DNA from: Loxodes magnus | Lineage: Eukaryota; Ciliophora; Karyorelictea; Loxodida; Loxodidae | Direction: 5' to 3' | DNA length: 64,000 bases | Assembly (NCBI GenBank): GCA_946699065.1 | Contig: CAMPDV010000078.1 | Span: 744,001-808,000 of the forward strand | Shown: piece after piece, positions 1,742 to 61,418 of the stretch | How positions within the stretch are numbered: the first letter of the stretch is position 1 | Layout of the letters: each line of letters opens with the position of its first letter | Program-made: the position numbers and the translations under genes | Notes under the pieces: generated by a model | The model's database searches: none | What the model was told of the DNA's origin: nothing | Seen by the model: the letters and a program-made list of their open reading frames with translations, nothing else

Positions 1742-3467
1742 ATGTCCTAGGTTGTTTAATGTCAATCTTGTAATGGAGATTTCGAAAATTAGATGAAAGT
1801 ACCCATGTTGTTGCCATGTGAACACAACATATGTTATCTATGTGCGCATGATTAGTATCTAAAAACCAAAAGTATCAAATGTGCAAATTGTCAGCAAGTT
1901 TATAAGATTCATCCTTCAAAGTTGTAAGAAGACAGTTAGTTACTTAAGTATCTTGAGAAAAAGAGTATCATGGAGAGTATATCATTGTTGGAGAATCAAT
2001 CACTGAGATTGCGTTAAGCTTAGACTTAATTGTCTAAGGTCTTAATTACTTTCATCTAGTAGTTGATTAAGCACGTGAATAGTTACGTTTTAAAGGGCAA
2101 TATTGACTTATAAAGGTAGTTGTTTGACTAGGATCGATAAATATAGGAGTAGTTAAGGTTCTTAAAAATCTAGAGGTAAGTAATAACTATTTGTAATAAC
2201 TATTAGTAATAGCCATTAGAATTACTAAGGCTAGGATATTTCTAAGTATGAGTCTAAGGTGTTGAGATTGTTAGATGAGGTTTAGAGGATCATCGATATG
2301 AGGGTATCGGTTAATGTTTACGAGGAGTTGGACAATTATAAGTTGATTAAAGAGTAAATGGTTAAGAAAAATGATTATTTGAGGAGTGAGATATAGAAGT
2401 TGAATGATTAAGTCTAGAATCAGTAATAATAGTTGACTTAGTTATAAGGTTAGTTGATCTAGTTCTAATAAGTAACGCCAGTAGTGTAGCTTAATTAGCC
2501 AATTTCTCCTCTATAAAATATTCCTCAGTAGGCAAAGATATAGGATATCAGTATAACCATCGTATCGCCGAACAATAAGACCTTAAAGCTCTAGGTCAAA
2601 TAAGAAACTACGATAAAGTAGATAAAAGAATAAATCGAAAAATAAACTGAGTTATTATCATGAACTCTCGACATCTTAAAGAGCAATACTAAACTGAAGA
2701 ACAGTTAATCAGTATCGAGTTTATAAATTGTCGATGGGGAATAGCTTCAAATGAGATATAGTAAGTTTAAAAGTTAAATGTATTATTAGATGGTAAGTTT
2801 ACTATATAAATAATTTTAGGAAGTACGTCACATTTTTAAAACATATAGTGGGTAAGTATTTTAATATTCTTTAAACATATAGTACGTAAGTATTTTAATA
2901 TTCTTTAAACATATAGATAGTAAGTATTTTAATATTCTTTAAACATATAGAAGGTAAGTATTTTAATATTCTTTAAACATATAGATGGTAAGTATTTTAA
3001 TATTCTTTAAACATATAGGGAGTAAGTATTATAATATTCTTTAAACATATAGAGAGTAAGTATTTTAATATTCTTTAAACATATAGATAGTAAGTATTTT
3101 AATATTCTTTAAACATATAGGATGTAAGTATTATAATATTCTTTAAACATATAGTATGTAAGTATTATAATATTCTTTAAACATATAGTATGTAAGTATT
3201 TTAATATTCTTTAAACATATAGACTGTAAGTATTATAATTTTCCAATTTAGAGAGTATTTATTAATATTGATAGTATGTAAGGTGTATTTATAGTTTTTT
3301 TTCTGTATTTTAGATGGTAGGTTTAGAATAATCAAAATAGGAGGTGAGTTATTAATTATGTTAAATAGAATGTATGTTAGTTTAAGGTAATTATAAAGGG
3401 GGTGAGTTAGTGTTTTAATGAGTTTAAAATAGGACTCATTGAATCGAGAGGCTGTGAAATATTCTGA
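1742..3467 (+). CDS. RING finger / coiled-coil / ubiquitin-like domain protein with a train of 3-nt microexons
   Basis: Starts at ATG 1742 after an A+T-rich leader. Residues 7-50 form a C3HC4 RING: CX2CX15CXHX2CX2CX12CX2C (C7, C10, C26, H28, C31, C34, C47, C50). A Gln-rich coiled coil follows (about 60-255), then a segment (about 258-328) that aligns by eye with the ubiquitin fold. RING domains usually recruit E2 enzymes, so a ubiquitin-ligase role is inferred. Removing a 31-nt intron (2176-2206) is needed to keep the frame. After 2760 the frame runs through 20 exons of exactly 3 nt, split by 21 GT...AG introns of 20-36 nt, into a last exon 3433-3467 ending in TGA. Exons sum to 1083 nt (361 codons). 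Codon 297 (2661-2663) is an in-frame TGA inside the ubiquitin-like segment: either a lesion or a sense codon. The RING call is firm; the microexon splicing is inferred. Confidence 0.7.
2852..3225 (+). repeat. eleven near-identical 31-nt intron-like units separated by variable triplets (34-nt period)
   Basis: Eleven 31-nt units each begin GTAAGTATT and end CATATAG; they differ only at one T/A position. Between them sit the triplets tac, ata, aag, atg, gga, aga, ata, gat, tat and tat, with tgg before the first unit and act after the last. Units begin at 2852, 2886, 2920, 2954, 2988, 3022, 3056, 3090, 3124, 3158 and 3192. Flanking units are diverged in sequence and length (29, 27, 26 nt before; 26, 20, 36, 24, 25, 27, 31 nt after) but keep GT...AG ends and the exact 3-nt spacing. 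Confidence 0.9.
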
Positions 3468-3496
3468 GTGAGTGAATGACTTTAAATACTTAATTT

Positions 3497-3575
3497 GAAC
3501 TCTGCTTAATATAAACTCTGCTTAATTTGAACTCTGCTTAATTTAAACTCTGCTTAATTTGAACTCTACTAAATA
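3497..3575 (+). repeat. 16-bp tandem repeat, five copies
   Basis: Five head-to-tail copies of a unit close to AACTCTGCTTAATTTG, starting 30 bp after the RING gene stop. The last copy is degenerate. Confidence 0.85.
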
Positions 3576-3838: not shown

Positions 3839-4382
3839 GTGTTTTTTATTATGAAGTTATAATAATTGATATTATTATAATTGATATTTTTAAATATTTT
3901 GTTATTTGTTTATGATTTTGTATAAGGATGTATGAGTGTGGAGAATGGGTGTAAAAGGTATAAGTTATTTTATAATACTGTATTTTTAAGTATTGTAGTT
4001 AGAATATTTGTATTGTAGTTTAATAATAATATAAGTAGTTGTAAAGGATTTAATTTTTTAAGGGTAAAGGTATATTGTTAAGAGTAGATAGAGGAAGTGT
4101 ATATTGTTTTTACTTTCTAAAAGTGATAAAAGTGTAAAAAGGTAAAGAAAGTAAAAGGACAAGAATTTTTTAAATTAGGACTGAGATATTTTTTAAAATA
4201 AAAGGAAGGAAGAGTGTAGTTTTAAAAAAAGGAGAAAGATACTTTTTTAAAGATTTTCTAATATAATTTTTTTTTAATATTTATTATATAATTTATAAAG
4301 TATTAAAAATAATAAAAATAATAAAAATAATAAAAATAATTAAATGTTTAATATATAAAATTGTTTTTGTTTAGAATTTGTG

Positions 4383-5880
4383 AAAATTTTAATTTTGTTT
4401 TTTTGCTCAGCGTTTTCCACTATAGGGAATTTTTGGGAAGGAATAAACTTGTGAAAAGCTGGATAAAATTTTTGAAAAAGGAATAAGAAAAGGTGTAAAT
4501 GGGATAAAGGGTATTGAGTAGTTTTAAAATTTTTGAAAGTGAATTTTTTTGAAAGTGAAATTTTTGAGAAGGAAATAAAAAGTCCATAATGAATTATTTT
4601 TAATATTTTTTGTATTTTTTTTTGAATTAGAGAAAAGTAAGAAAGATTTTTTGTTTGGTGGAAAGAGTATAAAAGGGAAAAATTTTTTGAATTTTGGAAA
4701 TGGAATAAAAAAATTTAATAAAAATAAAAATTGTTTGTGGAAGGTAGTAAAAAGAGTATGGTATGGTGTTTATGATTTCAAAAATCGTTTTTTTTGTAGT
4801 TAGAGAAAAGTATTTTTTCCTAATAAAGCCAAAATTTATTTAATTTTGTTGAATTGTTTTTTAAGAGTAATATGAAAAATGGTGATAGAAAAAGTAAAAA
4901 AGTTTTGAAGATGTTTAAAATGTGAAAATTTTAATTTTGTTTTTTTGCTCAGCGTTTTGCACTATAGGGAATTTTTGGGACGGAATAAACTTGCGAGATT
5001 TGGGATAAAAGATTTCAAAATGGAATAAGGAAAGGTGAAAAGGGAACTAAGGGGAGTAAGTAATGTTAAAATTTTCGAAGTAAAAATATTGATTAAGGAA
5101 AGAATAAAATTTCTAATGGAATTTTTGAAAAAAGTTATTTTTTTTTAAAAGAGAAAAGCTATAAAAGTGGGGAAAATTTTGAATTTTGGAAATGGAATAA
5201 AAAAATTTATAAAAATAGAAAGTTTGGAAAAAGTAGTTAAAAAGCGAAATAGTTGTTGAAAAAGTAAAAATAGATTTTGAAGAGGTTCAAAATAAGAAAA
5301 TTTTAATTTTGTTTTTTTGCTCAGCTTTTTACACTACAGGAAAATTTTCGGACGGAACAAAATTTTTTTTGGAATTTTAAAAGAAGGATAAGATTTTTAG
5401 ATTTTTAGATTTTTAGATTTTTAGATTTTTAGATTTTTAGATTTTTAGATTTTTAGATTTTTAGATTTTTAGATTTTTAGATTTTTAGATTTTTAGATTT
5501 TTAGATTTTTAGATTTTTAGATTTTTAGATTTTTAGATTTTTAGATTTTTAGATTTTTAGATTTTTAGATTTTTAGATTTTTAGATTTTTAGATTTTTAG
5601 TAATCAATTTTTTTTTTATTTTATAATTTTTTTAAACTATGAATTGGAAAAATTCAAAAAGTAAAAATAATTAATTATTAATTAAATTTCTTTTTTATCT
5701 AATTTGAATAAAATAATTTTTTATAATTTTAGTGGAGGTGAGGCTAAGAAAGTTTTAATCTATATCAGTTAATTTTTGTTTAACTGATAAAATCGATTTA
5801 AGATGTAAAAATTTAATTTTTGTTTTTCGCTCTGAATTTTATACTATAGAAGATTTTTTGGACGGAACAAAAATTTTAGA
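4383..5880 (+). repeat. four diverged copies of a 60-bp motif
   Basis: Copies begin near 4383, 4923, 5296 and 5808. The shared core reads TTTTTTTGCTCAGCG, then an ACTATAGG-like stretch, then a GGGACGGAATAAAC-like end. The spacing is irregular (about 540, 370 and 510 bp), and the A/G-rich sequence between copies is partly repeated too. No open frame of note; it could be a non-coding part of the surrounding element. Confidence 0.7.
5392..5600 (+). repeat. 8-bp satellite, about 26 perfect units
   Basis: Uninterrupted tandem array of GATTTTTA. The perfection suggests recent expansion by slippage. Confidence 0.97.
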
Positions 5881-17717: not shown

Positions 17718-18347
17718 TAGATCCTGAGGGCGGAAAACTTGAATCTTCGGCTTCTTTTGTAAGATAGAAAAAAGGAAAATCAAGACTTGTTTAGTAAAGT
17801 TTAGTTTTAAATTGAAGCCTTAACTTCCTAATTTGAACTATTAGAAAAAAACCTAGAAGCAAATCAATAGAAAATTAAAGAAGAAATTCGATTACCAATC
17901 AAAAAAAACTAACTTCAATCAGAAAAGATGGAAATTGAAAAAATGTAAACAGAATAAAAATTTTAATTCAAGCCCTTAATAGAACGTTGCTATTGTTGTC
18001 AAAAGGCTGGACATTTTTGGAGGTAATATCCGAAGTGAAGAAGAGTGCTTGAGCAGCACCGTAAATAATTTGGAACATCGAGGAGGCTATATTGTAACTA
18101 CTTTGGAGGTATTTACAGAAAGAAGCTGATATTAGATGATTCAAGTGTGACACTAATCAAACAGGATCTTGGTAATTAATAGTAACAGAATAAATAGCTT
18201 TAAAAGGACAACAATGACCTTAGAATTTGTTTAGAGAAGCTGGAGAAAAATTACAAGAAAATGGAAGAACAATTCTATGAGCTTATTGAAGAGAAAGAAG
18301 AATTATCTCAGTTTGAAATTGATTCAGATGAAGACATGTACAGTTGA
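17718..18347 (+). pseudogene. Gag-like coiled-coil / CCHC zinc-knuckle gene (copy D)
   Basis: One reading frame (TAA/TAG = Gln) runs through the whole stretch with a single TGA at 18036-18038. In order: coiled coil (Glu/Gln/Lys heptads, about 17720-17960), a knuckle CYCCQKAGHFWRQY (CX2CX4HX4 with Tyr in place of the last Cys), the family motif LYCNYFGGIYRKK, a second coiled coil, and an acidic end (DSDED) before TGA 18345-18347. CCHC knuckles in retroelement Gag-type proteins bind nucleic acid; that role is inferred. The internal TGA and the lost Cys suggest decay, though the frame beyond the TGA is fully preserved. ATG 17928 lies inside the coiled coil, so the true start is unclear. Copy A follows 350 bp downstream. 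Confidence 0.6.
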
Positions 18348-18693
18348 GTATTGAATATAGAAACTTTTATTGTCTTTAGTTTGATGAAACATTTTCTCTA
18401 ATTAAAGATGACCCTAACCCTTATAGTTAAAATTAATTAATTAATTAAATATTTTTAATACTAAAGTCAAAAAGAATATATCCTATTAAAAGAATTAATA
18501 AATGGATTTAACTAGCTAATAAAGTATTTATCAAAATGAGATAGAAAGAGAGCTATGACTGAAAACGCAGAAACATTTAAATTTAAAATTATTTTTTTGA
18601 TTTTTCCCGATAATTATTCAATTATGTCTCAATATTTCAAATTTTGAATCTCATATAGTTTATTCTTTATATCATTATATATATTTAAATAAA

Positions 18694-19486
18694 ATGGCTC
18701 CTAAGAAATAATCGACAAAAACTAACAGGAAATCGAACAATAAAACTCTCTAATCGAAATATACTCCCTAGAAGCGGAAAACAAAAAATGCAACAATCAC
18801 TTATAGACTTGATTTAACGATTATATTCTTTAACTTTTACTGTGCAATAATTATAAAACGAAAATTAATGATTAAAAACGGAAATAAGTACTAAAGCCTT
18901 GATATTGCAAGGTAATTAAAAACTGGAAAAAATGGAGCAAAGAATAGTAGAAATTAATAAATCATACAATTCTAATCTTAATAATGTTCCTATGGTAATA
19001 GAAGAACAAAATTTAAATTCTTTTTCGGATCAGAAAAAAATTGTCAATTTTTTAAAATTCAAAAAATGCTAAAAATACTTAAAAATAGGACATAACTCGA
19101 AATATTGTAAAACAAGATGTTTCTAATGCTAAAAGGTTGGACACATCTTTAGAAGATGCTGGTATTTTCAGAAGAAGCAAGAATCTAATAATTGAAAGAT
19201 ATGAAATAATATGAAAAAACTATATTGTTCTCTAGAAGGAAGACTTTACAAGAAAAAATTATACTGTGGAGATTAATTATTATTGGATATAGTAAATGCT
19301 CAAAAAAGAAGGATGAGGAAGATGTTGGGACCTAATTGAGATTGAAGAAAAATTCCTAAGATCAAGAAAGGTTAAATCTGTACAACACGATATGCAATAG
19401 AAGAAGCAAGCTCTGAAGAAGACCCGAACGATTCATTTACATCTTAAAACTCATAAAATAATTAGTGGCAAACCAAATAAAGGTGA
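18694..19486 (+). pseudogene. Gag-like CCHC zinc-knuckle gene (copy A)
   Basis: Begins ATGGCTCCTAAGAAA, as copy B does (copy E begins almost alike). Relative to B it has two 1-nt deletions in the first 110 bp, so the N-terminus is broken. From about 18920 one frame is continuous: a coiled coil, a degenerate knuckle (CX2YX4HX4C), a perfect knuckle CFQCQKVGHIFRRC, the motif GRLYKKK, and an acidic tail with SSEED, ending at TGA 19484-19486. That frame passes four internal TGAs. The 3' end (19465-19515) is shared with copies B and K and may be the element terminus. B is a near-identical inverted copy 37 kb away. No polymerase or integrase domain is linked to it. Confidence 0.65.
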
Positions 19487-41560: not shown

Positions 41561-41905
41561 AAAACCGCCATAGTTGTTCGAAGGTGAACAACAAGGTCAT
41601 CTTCATCAGAGACTGGGGTATTTAAGTACCCAAAATTGACACATGTCGTCTTCTGCTTTGGTGATGCAATGAGACACAATCCTGCCATGTCCTTGGACCT
41701 CCAACAAGTATTAAAGATTACGAGTATTCTAAAATTATATCAGTATTGAACATTTTTATCAGTACTGAATAATTATACCAGTATTGAACAAGGTTTATCA
41801 GTATCTGATAATTTTATCAGTAAGAAACATTCTTGTCAGTATGAAACATTTTTTTTAAAGAGCTGCGCACCAACGAGAGTGCTACGCGCTCTATAATCAA
41901 ATTTA
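41561..41905 (+). mobile_element. left long inverted repeat with ~19-bp subrepeats and terminal dyad
   Basis: About 345 bp repeated in inverted orientation at 60916-61418. From outside inward: a G+C-richer segment (AAAACCGCCATAGTTG... to about 41710); then five to six degenerate units of roughly 19 bp with a TCAGTA core and GAACA/GATAA-like ends (about 41740-41850); a T run; the dyad 41860-41891; and the ATAATCAAATTTATT flank. No open frame. Tlr elements of Tetrahymena are known for long inverted repeats containing 19-bp tandem repeats, which this resembles; family membership is inferred. Confidence 0.75.
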
Positions 41906-60915: not shown

Positions 60916-61418
60916 TAAATTTGATTATAAAGCGCGTAGCACTCTCGTTGGTGCGCAGCTCTTTAAAAAAATGTTTCATACTGACAAGAATGTTTCTTAC
61001 TGATAAAATTATCAGATACTGGTAAACTTTGTTCAATACTGGTATAATTATTCAGTACTGATAAAAATGTTCAATACTGATATAATTTTAGAATACTCGT
61101 AAACTTTAATACTTGCTGGAGGTCCAAGGACATGATAGGATTGTGTCTCATTGCATCACCAAAGCAGAGGACGACATGTGTCAATTATGGGTACTTAAAT
61201 TCCCCACCTCTGATGAAGCTCGCAATATTGATTCTTTTTCGTTCCAGAGTTAAAAATAAACGAAGCCAAGCCAAGTCAGTGTCGAAGGTCTAAGAATCTT
61301 ATGTCTCGAGGCCAAACCAAAGCAGAGGAAGACATAAAGTCGATTATGGGTACTTAACTTCCCCAGCCTCTGATGAAGATGACCTTGTTGTTTACCTTCG
61401 AACAACTATGACGGTTTT
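60916..61418 (-). mobile_element. right long inverted repeat with internal duplication
   Basis: Inverted partner of 41561-41905. It has the same order from outside inward (CGGTTTT end at 61418, G+C-richer block, ~19-bp subrepeats at about 60985-61090, dyad 60930-60961, A+T flank). It is about 160 bp longer because the ATCAGAGG...GGGTACTTAA...CTCTGCTTTGG block occurs twice (about 61150-61215 and 61305-61370), with unrelated sequence between. Confidence 0.75.

Follow-up and report, generated by a model that had tools for sequence, protein, structure and literature searches.

Candidate single-codon exons in series between near-identical introns in a RING–ubiquitin-like gene family of Loxodes magnus

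Introduction

Few internal exons are as short as 3 nt, and at very small sizes an exon is considered difficult for the spliceosome to recognize. Micro-exon genes have symmetric exons whose lengths are multiples of 3, many of them small and consecutive, and encode a secreted product. Introner elements are near-identical introns found genome-wide that insert with a target-site duplication. To our knowledge, long runs of single-codon exons serving as units of recombination have no known match.

The closest described systems are a single-nucleotide exon in Arabidopsis (PMC4674806), a 3-bp microexon in Drosophila homothorax (PMC7392893), the schistosome micro-exon genes (PMC4350168, PMC4671649), the aphid bicycle genes (PMC9168663), and introner elements (PMC7789003). 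For Loxodes magnus, the genome paper reports a MAC assembly of 706 Mbp, the use of translation table 27—i.e. TGA is read as Trp or, near the poly-A tail, as stop—and introns with a mean of 19.3 nt, a mode of 17 nt, and 93% at or below 25 nt (Seah et al. 2024, PMC11441545). In the parts of it consulted, one-codon exon series are not described, and among the papers listed by our literature search, none combined a Loxodes or karyorelict term with a microexon term.

Here, we analyze a window of 64 kb of the genome of the karyorelict ciliate L. magnus (C78:744001-808000; "the window" means this whole stretch of DNA), in which a gene ends in a train of tiny GT..AG intervals spaced by exactly one codon. 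Like the Arabidopsis and homothorax exons, the members of this train would be spliceosomal exons of 1–3 nt; however, the known ones are isolated, whereas the candidates in Loxodes stand in unbroken series and by the thousand. The schistosome and aphid genes resemble the Loxodes ones in that they form families, contain many small exons, and encode products that evolve fast, and consecutive small exons with lengths in multiples of 3 are also found in the Loxodes family at the level of gene models. The Loxodes protein starts with a RING finger. By contrast, the schistosome and aphid exons are larger and are not single codons between near-identical tandem introns, and the proteins are unrelated. 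Introner elements likewise place near-identical introns at many points of a genome, but the Loxodes copies lie in tandem within one gene family, target-site duplication is not seen, and their number changes together with the codon. TRIM-type RING E3 ligases share the N-terminal RING, the coiled coil, and a C-terminal part, and the RING of the window gene matches TRIM32; the window gene differs by its ubiquitin-like domain (Ubl) and one-codon-exon tail, and by the lack of a B-box or SPRY match in Pfam scans. Compared with the ordinary short introns of L. magnus, a second family reported below is alike (GT..AG, 16–26 nt), whereas the introns of the window gene are mostly 31 nt.

Results

Anatomy of the train

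An automatic chain search, together with the parse we adopted, divides positions 2761–3432 into 21 GT..AG intervals of 20–36 nt, with 20 spacers of exactly 3 nt between them. The GT..AG borders are present in all 21 intervals, and the 3' end is TAG in all but one, which ends in AAG (3372–3398). The gene reads as follows, introns and microexons being predicted features:

1742..2175, + strand: exon 1, containing the start codon and encoding a RING finger (frame open under table 6/27; RING models below Pfam cut-offs; TRIM32 match)
2176..2206, + strand: intron of 31 nt, gtaagt..attag (joins two open frames in phase; frame continuous without the intron in locus L012)
2207..2760, + strand: exon 2, which encodes a coiled coil rich in Gln (by eye) and a ubiquitin-like domain, with TGA 2661–2663 as Trp (Pfam Rad60-SLD; aligned relatives)
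2761..2789, + strand: first GT..AG interval, 29 nt, probably exonic and coding SKFKSQMYYQ (length of 29 nt in 30 of 31 entries; whole-codon triplets; L016)
2790..2792, + strand: triplet ATG, which closes exon 2 in the preferred model and is otherwise microexon 1 (parse; first-interval length comparison)
2793..2851, + strand: introns 2 and 3 (27 and 26 nt), microexons GAA and TGG (parse)
2852..3222, + strand: eleven near-identical 31-nt introns, with microexons TAC ATA AAG ATG GGA AGA ATA GAT TAT TAT between them (parse; exact 31-mer 759 times in the genome)
3223..3432, + strand: microexon ACT, introns 15–21 (26, 20, 36, 24, 25, 27, and 31 nt), microexons AGA TAT ATG GAG AAT GGG (parse; matching introns kept in 30 loci)
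3433..3471, + strand: last exon DSLNREAVKYSE and probable stop TGA 3469–3471 (comparison with family loci)
3465..3479, + strand: TGAGTGAGTGAATGA, with TGA in all three frames (sequence; most of 30 loci by eye, altered in L016 and L042)

We simulated the 64-kb window 200 times under a first-order Markov model; the longest chain with 3-nt spacing was 3, compared with 21 observed, and the unique right flank of the train alone gives a chain of 7. Spacers of 1–12 nt other than 3 give chains of at most 4 in the window, with the exception of 7 nt, which reaches 13. This exception corresponds to reading the repeat as 7-nt exons with a GTATT donor 4 nt further in, an alternative that we rejected as it falls short of the whole train (13 versus 21). 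A loose chain that allows any GT..AG parses the last part of the train otherwise, with 22 intervals. These results confirm the train of intervals with 3-nt spacing that a first-pass annotation had read as microexons at 2761..3432, and the same is true of its claim that ten flanking intervals, now numbered 1–3 and 15–21, differ in sequence and length yet keep GT, AG, and the 3-nt spacing.

The 11 intervals at 2852–3222 are copies of one 31-nt sequence (consensus GTAAGTATT[T/A]TAATATTCTTTAAACATATAG) in a 34-nt tandem. Among the 22 deviating cells of this array, 19 fall in the three triplet columns and 3 in a single one of the 31 intron columns (binomial P ~1e-17). As such, variation is not spread along the unit as in a plain minisatellite (19/22 deviating cells in 3/34 columns): apart from 3 scrambled nucleotides, the unit is nearly invariant.

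Other repeats were recorded in the window. A 16-nt tandem repeat (CTTAATTTGAACTCTG) lies directly behind the stop at 3489–3567, with similar ones after the last exon in the other family loci compared. A perfect 8-nt repeat, AGATTTTT, is present in 26 copies at 5391–5600, and the motif TTTTTTGCTC...CACTATAGGGAATTTTTGG recurs about four times by eye at 4381–5860, perhaps as a dispersed repeat. Two related stretches at 17940–19440, one of them damaged, carry by eye a zinc-knuckle-like CX2CX4HX4C and are possibly retroelement remnants. Similar 19/38-nt minisatellites with TACTGATA-like motifs are found ~19 kb apart, at 41723–41845 and 60978–61087.

The RING–ubiquitin-like gene

The train is the 3' end of a RING/ubiquitin-like gene. 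Its Ubl reaches 25.6 bits with Pfam Rad60-SLD (cut-off 23.8) when TGA is read as Trp, and 18.3 bits otherwise. No RING model reaches its Pfam cut-off (the best scores 21.2 bits against 25.2), and the best PDB match of the RING is TRIM32 (E 2.4e-4). By eye, the coiled coil of exon 2 is glutamine-rich. Protein database searches returned no relative at E 0.001, and single-sequence structure prediction of the Ubl has a mean pLDDT of 54.6.

One in-frame TGA, which the first-pass annotation did not mention, lies inside the upstream Ubl frame at 2661–2663 and aligns with Trp, Tyr, and His codons of relatives. In 21 distinct family sequences, the codon at this site is TGA (4), TGG (5), CAT (5), TAT (4), or TCA (3), and the last codon before 2761 is TGA (10), TAT (6), AGA (3), ATA (1), or TTA (1). 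We take the window gene to be intact. The possibility that it is a pseudogene owing to TGA 2661 was rejected because TGA is Trp here, and an extra intron bypassing the TGA was rejected because the Ubl match is continuous through it.

The variable spots of the Ubl (codons 38, 45, 51–54, and 85 of 85; overall pN/pS 0.92) suggest a recognition surface, a role that is a guess. At locus L012 (C78:113001-122000), the Ubl and train start are nearly those of the window gene, but the RING half has diverged strongly from it, a mosaic that looks as if conversion or recombination had occurred between family members.

The gene family across the genome

We searched 705,730,643 bases on 7,843 contigs. The exact 31-nt intron occurs 759 times, at least 100 of them on C78 (all among the matches listed). 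Intron 16 (20 nt) is found at 46 exact places and at five more with one mismatch. We examined 30 of the 46, including the window gene itself (L025); these loci were thus chosen through an intron of the train, and some are probably haplotype copies. The train is present in all 30, the window's own included, and in 2 of the 5 one-mismatch loci, the other three being chance matches. Summed over the 30 loci, the chains comprise 789 introns and 756 exons of exactly 3 nt and are broken at three points; since the chain search takes only 3-nt exons and listed donors, the breaks and not the exon lengths are the measure. The three breaks are read as damaged donors, such as those of L041 and L022.

The ends of the train are conserved. 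ATG stands first in 21 of 25 loci and GAA second in 17 of 25, and the last six triplets in the 30 loci are TAT (30), ATC (28; ATG in 2), GAG (23; GAA in 6, AAG in 1), AAT (30), GGG (30), and GAC (30). Introns that match the flanking, non-repetitive ones of the window are kept with 3-nt spacing in all 30 loci; six of 40 end columns vary across loci, which we attribute to gap placement. The variable middle is distinct in each of the 30 loci, two of them cut off by the locus end. Among 487 consensus-like intron units, 328 are exact, 404 are 31 nt long and deviate at 0.67% of sites, and 83 have other lengths. Within loci, heterozygosity averages 0.90 among the 3-nt exons and 0.50 among whole introns.

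L009 (C78:231527-235769) has 125 intervals in one train, with triplets that are mostly AAT and TCT, which we read as a recently expanded Asn/Ser run of putative separate one-codon exons. By eye, two further loci, L055 and L056, appear to belong to the window's family as divergent genes whose introns have other sequences.

Reading frame, first interval, and stop

The Ubl frame reaches 2760 with one base over, so the triplets would be in phase 1 if the first interval were spliced. According to the codon usage of the family, however, the triplets fit phase 0 (whole codons) better than phase 1 in 499 of 500 bootstraps and better than phase 2 in 500 of 500 (21 loci; L016, L019, L022, and L041 were left out of all codon-usage tests, and five near-duplicates also out of the bootstrap). 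The first interval (2761–2789) is 29 nt long in 30 of 31 matched entries, under a pattern allowing ~27–30 nt, with one gene entered twice (window and L025) and three loci unmatched; in L016, the triplet after it is absent. In the model we prefer, which falls short of proof, the first interval is probably exonic, and the phase conflict between the upstream frame and the whole-codon triplets then vanishes. The exonic model reads ...QMRY-SKFKSQMYYQ-ME-[variable]-YIENG-D..., with predicted protein ends such as DSLKNRMAVKYSE, DWSIGESE, and DCGTESE. L041, with 28 nt at the first interval, does not fit this model.

Under the exonic model, the microexons of the window gene would number 19, and its stop would be TGA 3469–3471. 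The first pass had counted twenty microexons, joined to the phase left by the previous exon and ending at TGA 3465. Its twenty exact triplets stand, but their number as microexons is probably 19, whole codons fit better than the proposed phase, and the stop would be displaced. We rejected the phase left at 2760 for the triplets because it gives poorer codon usage and leaves L016 without TGA in that frame (compared stretch, by eye). The TGA present in all three frames of TGAGTGAGTGAATGA may secure termination where this codon is ambiguous.

Differences between near-identical copies

L028 and L036 differ by four substitutions in ~3 kb, plus single-base gaps that may be homopolymer noise. Three of the four make up one triplet (TTC to AGA), and the changed triplet equals the one three units further on. 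L028 and L036 lie 35,811 and 35,866 nt from L027 and L035, spacings from which L028/L036 and L027/L035 are probably haplotype copies. Within the train, L018 and L020 differ by one 34-nt unit and no substitution, L034 and L039 by 170 nt (five units) and two substitutions, and L027 and L035 by 68 nt plus 29 aligned substitutions, hence not by units alone. Strings of at least four triplets are common to 11 pairs in four groups (28 loci), compared with a mean of 0.9 pairs after shuffling. Triplet number varies between loci and close copies differ by 34-nt units, which indicates that intron and codon move together.

One-codon exons genome-wide and a second RING-Ubl family

Three 3-nt exons in succession, searched as a pattern with TAG and GTAAG, match the genome 26,538 times (reversed control: 554), and two in succession match 31,624 times (control: 1,707). 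With 4-nt exons, the two-exon pattern has 21 matches and its control 16. These counts include tandem arrays and overlapping matches, and the exon lengths compared are 3 and 4 nt. At ten further loci chosen from the pattern matches (L050, L052–L060), the longest 3-nt chain is 13–35, whereas other exon lengths of 1–9 nt give chains of at most 6; L059 and L060 contain fused intervals.

Four of these loci on four contigs (L050, L052, L053, and L054) are a second RING-Ubl family, in which the RING of L052 is above the Pfam cut-off. The family has 23 introns of 16–26 nt and exons of 3, 3, 3, 27, 3, 3, 6, and 21 nt followed by fifteen of 3 nt, under a segmentation in which exon lengths were limited to multiples of 3 and five intervals of L050/L053, including one GC donor, were cut by hand. 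This layout is in register in all four paralogs, and in comparisons between them, 5–13 of the 23 introns vary in length and the exons never do. In all four, TGA forms one microexon. Exon differences between L052 and L054 at codon positions 1, 2, and 3 number 2, 5, and 10; this third-position excess is seen in one of six pairs, with none in the five others. Intron identity (0.69–0.92) is about equal to exon identity (0.68–0.85), possibly because the introns are nearly pure A/T. In L053, intron 13 is a probable GC..AG intron between two one-codon exons.

Downstream in L052 and L054 are arrays of 24-nt introns with variable triplets, 46 and 26 units long, whose introns deviate by 0.8% and 2.4%. 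These arrays show the same design built on a different intron.

Discussion

We consider it probable, at roughly 0.8, that the train consists of spliced single-codon exons in a large RING–coiled coil–Ubl family, and that an intron and a codon together form the unit that is duplicated and converted. Three observations support the core of the first-pass proposal, in which tiny introns separate 3-nt microexons in a RING/Ubl gene: the train in 30 of 30 loci (the window's own included), the excess of 3-nt over 4-nt spacing, and the second family. To these observations are added the anatomy of the train itself, near-invariant introns against varying triplets, and the unit-sized differences between copies. 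That the train is spliced and translated, that its units are converted, and that the tail serves recognition are inferred.

In the mechanism we propose, the 3' part of the gene would comprise ~19 consecutive one-codon exons and a short last exon, and the GT..AG introns of 20–36 nt would be removed singly by intron definition, a neighboring intron counting as exon while it awaits removal. Since intron definition needs only the intron at hand, a 3-nt exon would pose no steric problem if the introns leave singly. Tandem duplication, deletion, and out-of-register conversion between near-identical 31-nt introns would add, remove, or replace whole codons. The unit being one intron plus one codon, unequal exchange, slippage, and conversion between identical introns would leave the frame intact, and such exchange would account jointly for the frozen introns, the scrambled codons, and the unit-sized differences. 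The outcome would be a hypervariable, gene-specific C-terminal tail behind conserved domains. If any donor could join any acceptor, ladders of codons would also arise from a single gene. Counting against the proposal are the length of the 31-nt introns, which exceeds that of most L. magnus introns (93% at or below 25 nt), the phase-1 entry of the upstream frame unless the first interval is exonic, and the whole-intron heterozygosity within loci, which is still 0.50. Also weighing against it are the two retrocopy patterns that gave no match, the near-equal similarity of introns and exons between paralogs of the second family, where one of six pairs has a third-position excess, the hand-cut intervals and multiple-of-3 limit of that segmentation, the fused intervals of L059 and L060, the damaged donors of L041 and L022, and the 29 aligned substitutions between L027 and L035.

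The train could instead be a minisatellite of an intron-like unit, located either in a 3' UTR or inside a single large intron, with incidental GT and AG and no 3-nt splicing. Eleven of the 21 intervals are indeed a tandem repeat, arrays expand to 125 intervals in L009, and two sequence patterns searched for spliced retrocopies gave no match. However, variation is almost wholly confined to the triplets, which obey codon usage, the non-repetitive flanking intervals hold the 3-nt spacing in 30 of 30 loci, 4-nt spacing is at background genome-wide, and the second family is non-repetitive over 23 introns; we therefore regard a minisatellite as improbable. An array acting as DNA or RNA, e.g. for protein binding or as a barcode with variable 3-nt spacers, would agree with a highly conserved repeat and variable spacer, its coding look being incidental. 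It appears highly improbable to us, given that GT and AG mark the exact ends of the conserved unit, that codon usage is again obeyed by the triplets, and that the introns of the second family do not repeat.

Two further alternatives accept real introns. The microexons may be mostly optional, with any donor joined to any downstream acceptor, many frame-preserving tails per gene, and rare full inclusion. The repeated introns share identical donors and acceptors, the frame is kept whatever number of 3-nt exons is skipped, and the damaged donors of L022 and L041 could be bypassed; yet codon-level conservation in the second family is less expected if exons are mostly skipped, and we judge this reading unlikely. 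Another is an introner-like origin, in which an existing coding stretch received an intron after every third nucleotide, as opposed to joint duplication of intron and codon. It would suit the 23 unlike introns that split a conserved codon series in the second family, as well as the near-identical introns between unlike triplets in the window. It is at odds with the first family, where triplet number varies by locus and close copies differ by whole 34-nt units, and target-site duplication is not seen because the triplets flanking the repeated introns usually differ. We hold such an origin to be distinctly unlikely.

Ordinary gene finders and read aligners would miss genes made of one-codon exons. 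Should splicing indeed join single codons, dozens in a row and in many genes, then intron definition must be enough by itself, and the limits on exon size would have to be reconsidered. A broader view, on which we are evenly divided, is that the spliceosomal intron serves L. magnus as a codon-handling device: identical 31-nt (or 24-nt) introns would be homology tracts through which tails are rewritten codon by codon and in frame, in dozens of RING-Ubl genes, maybe for recognition, and among tens of thousands of one-codon exons genome-wide. If this is true, introns gain an evolutionary use as spacers that make codon-by-codon recombination frame-proof.
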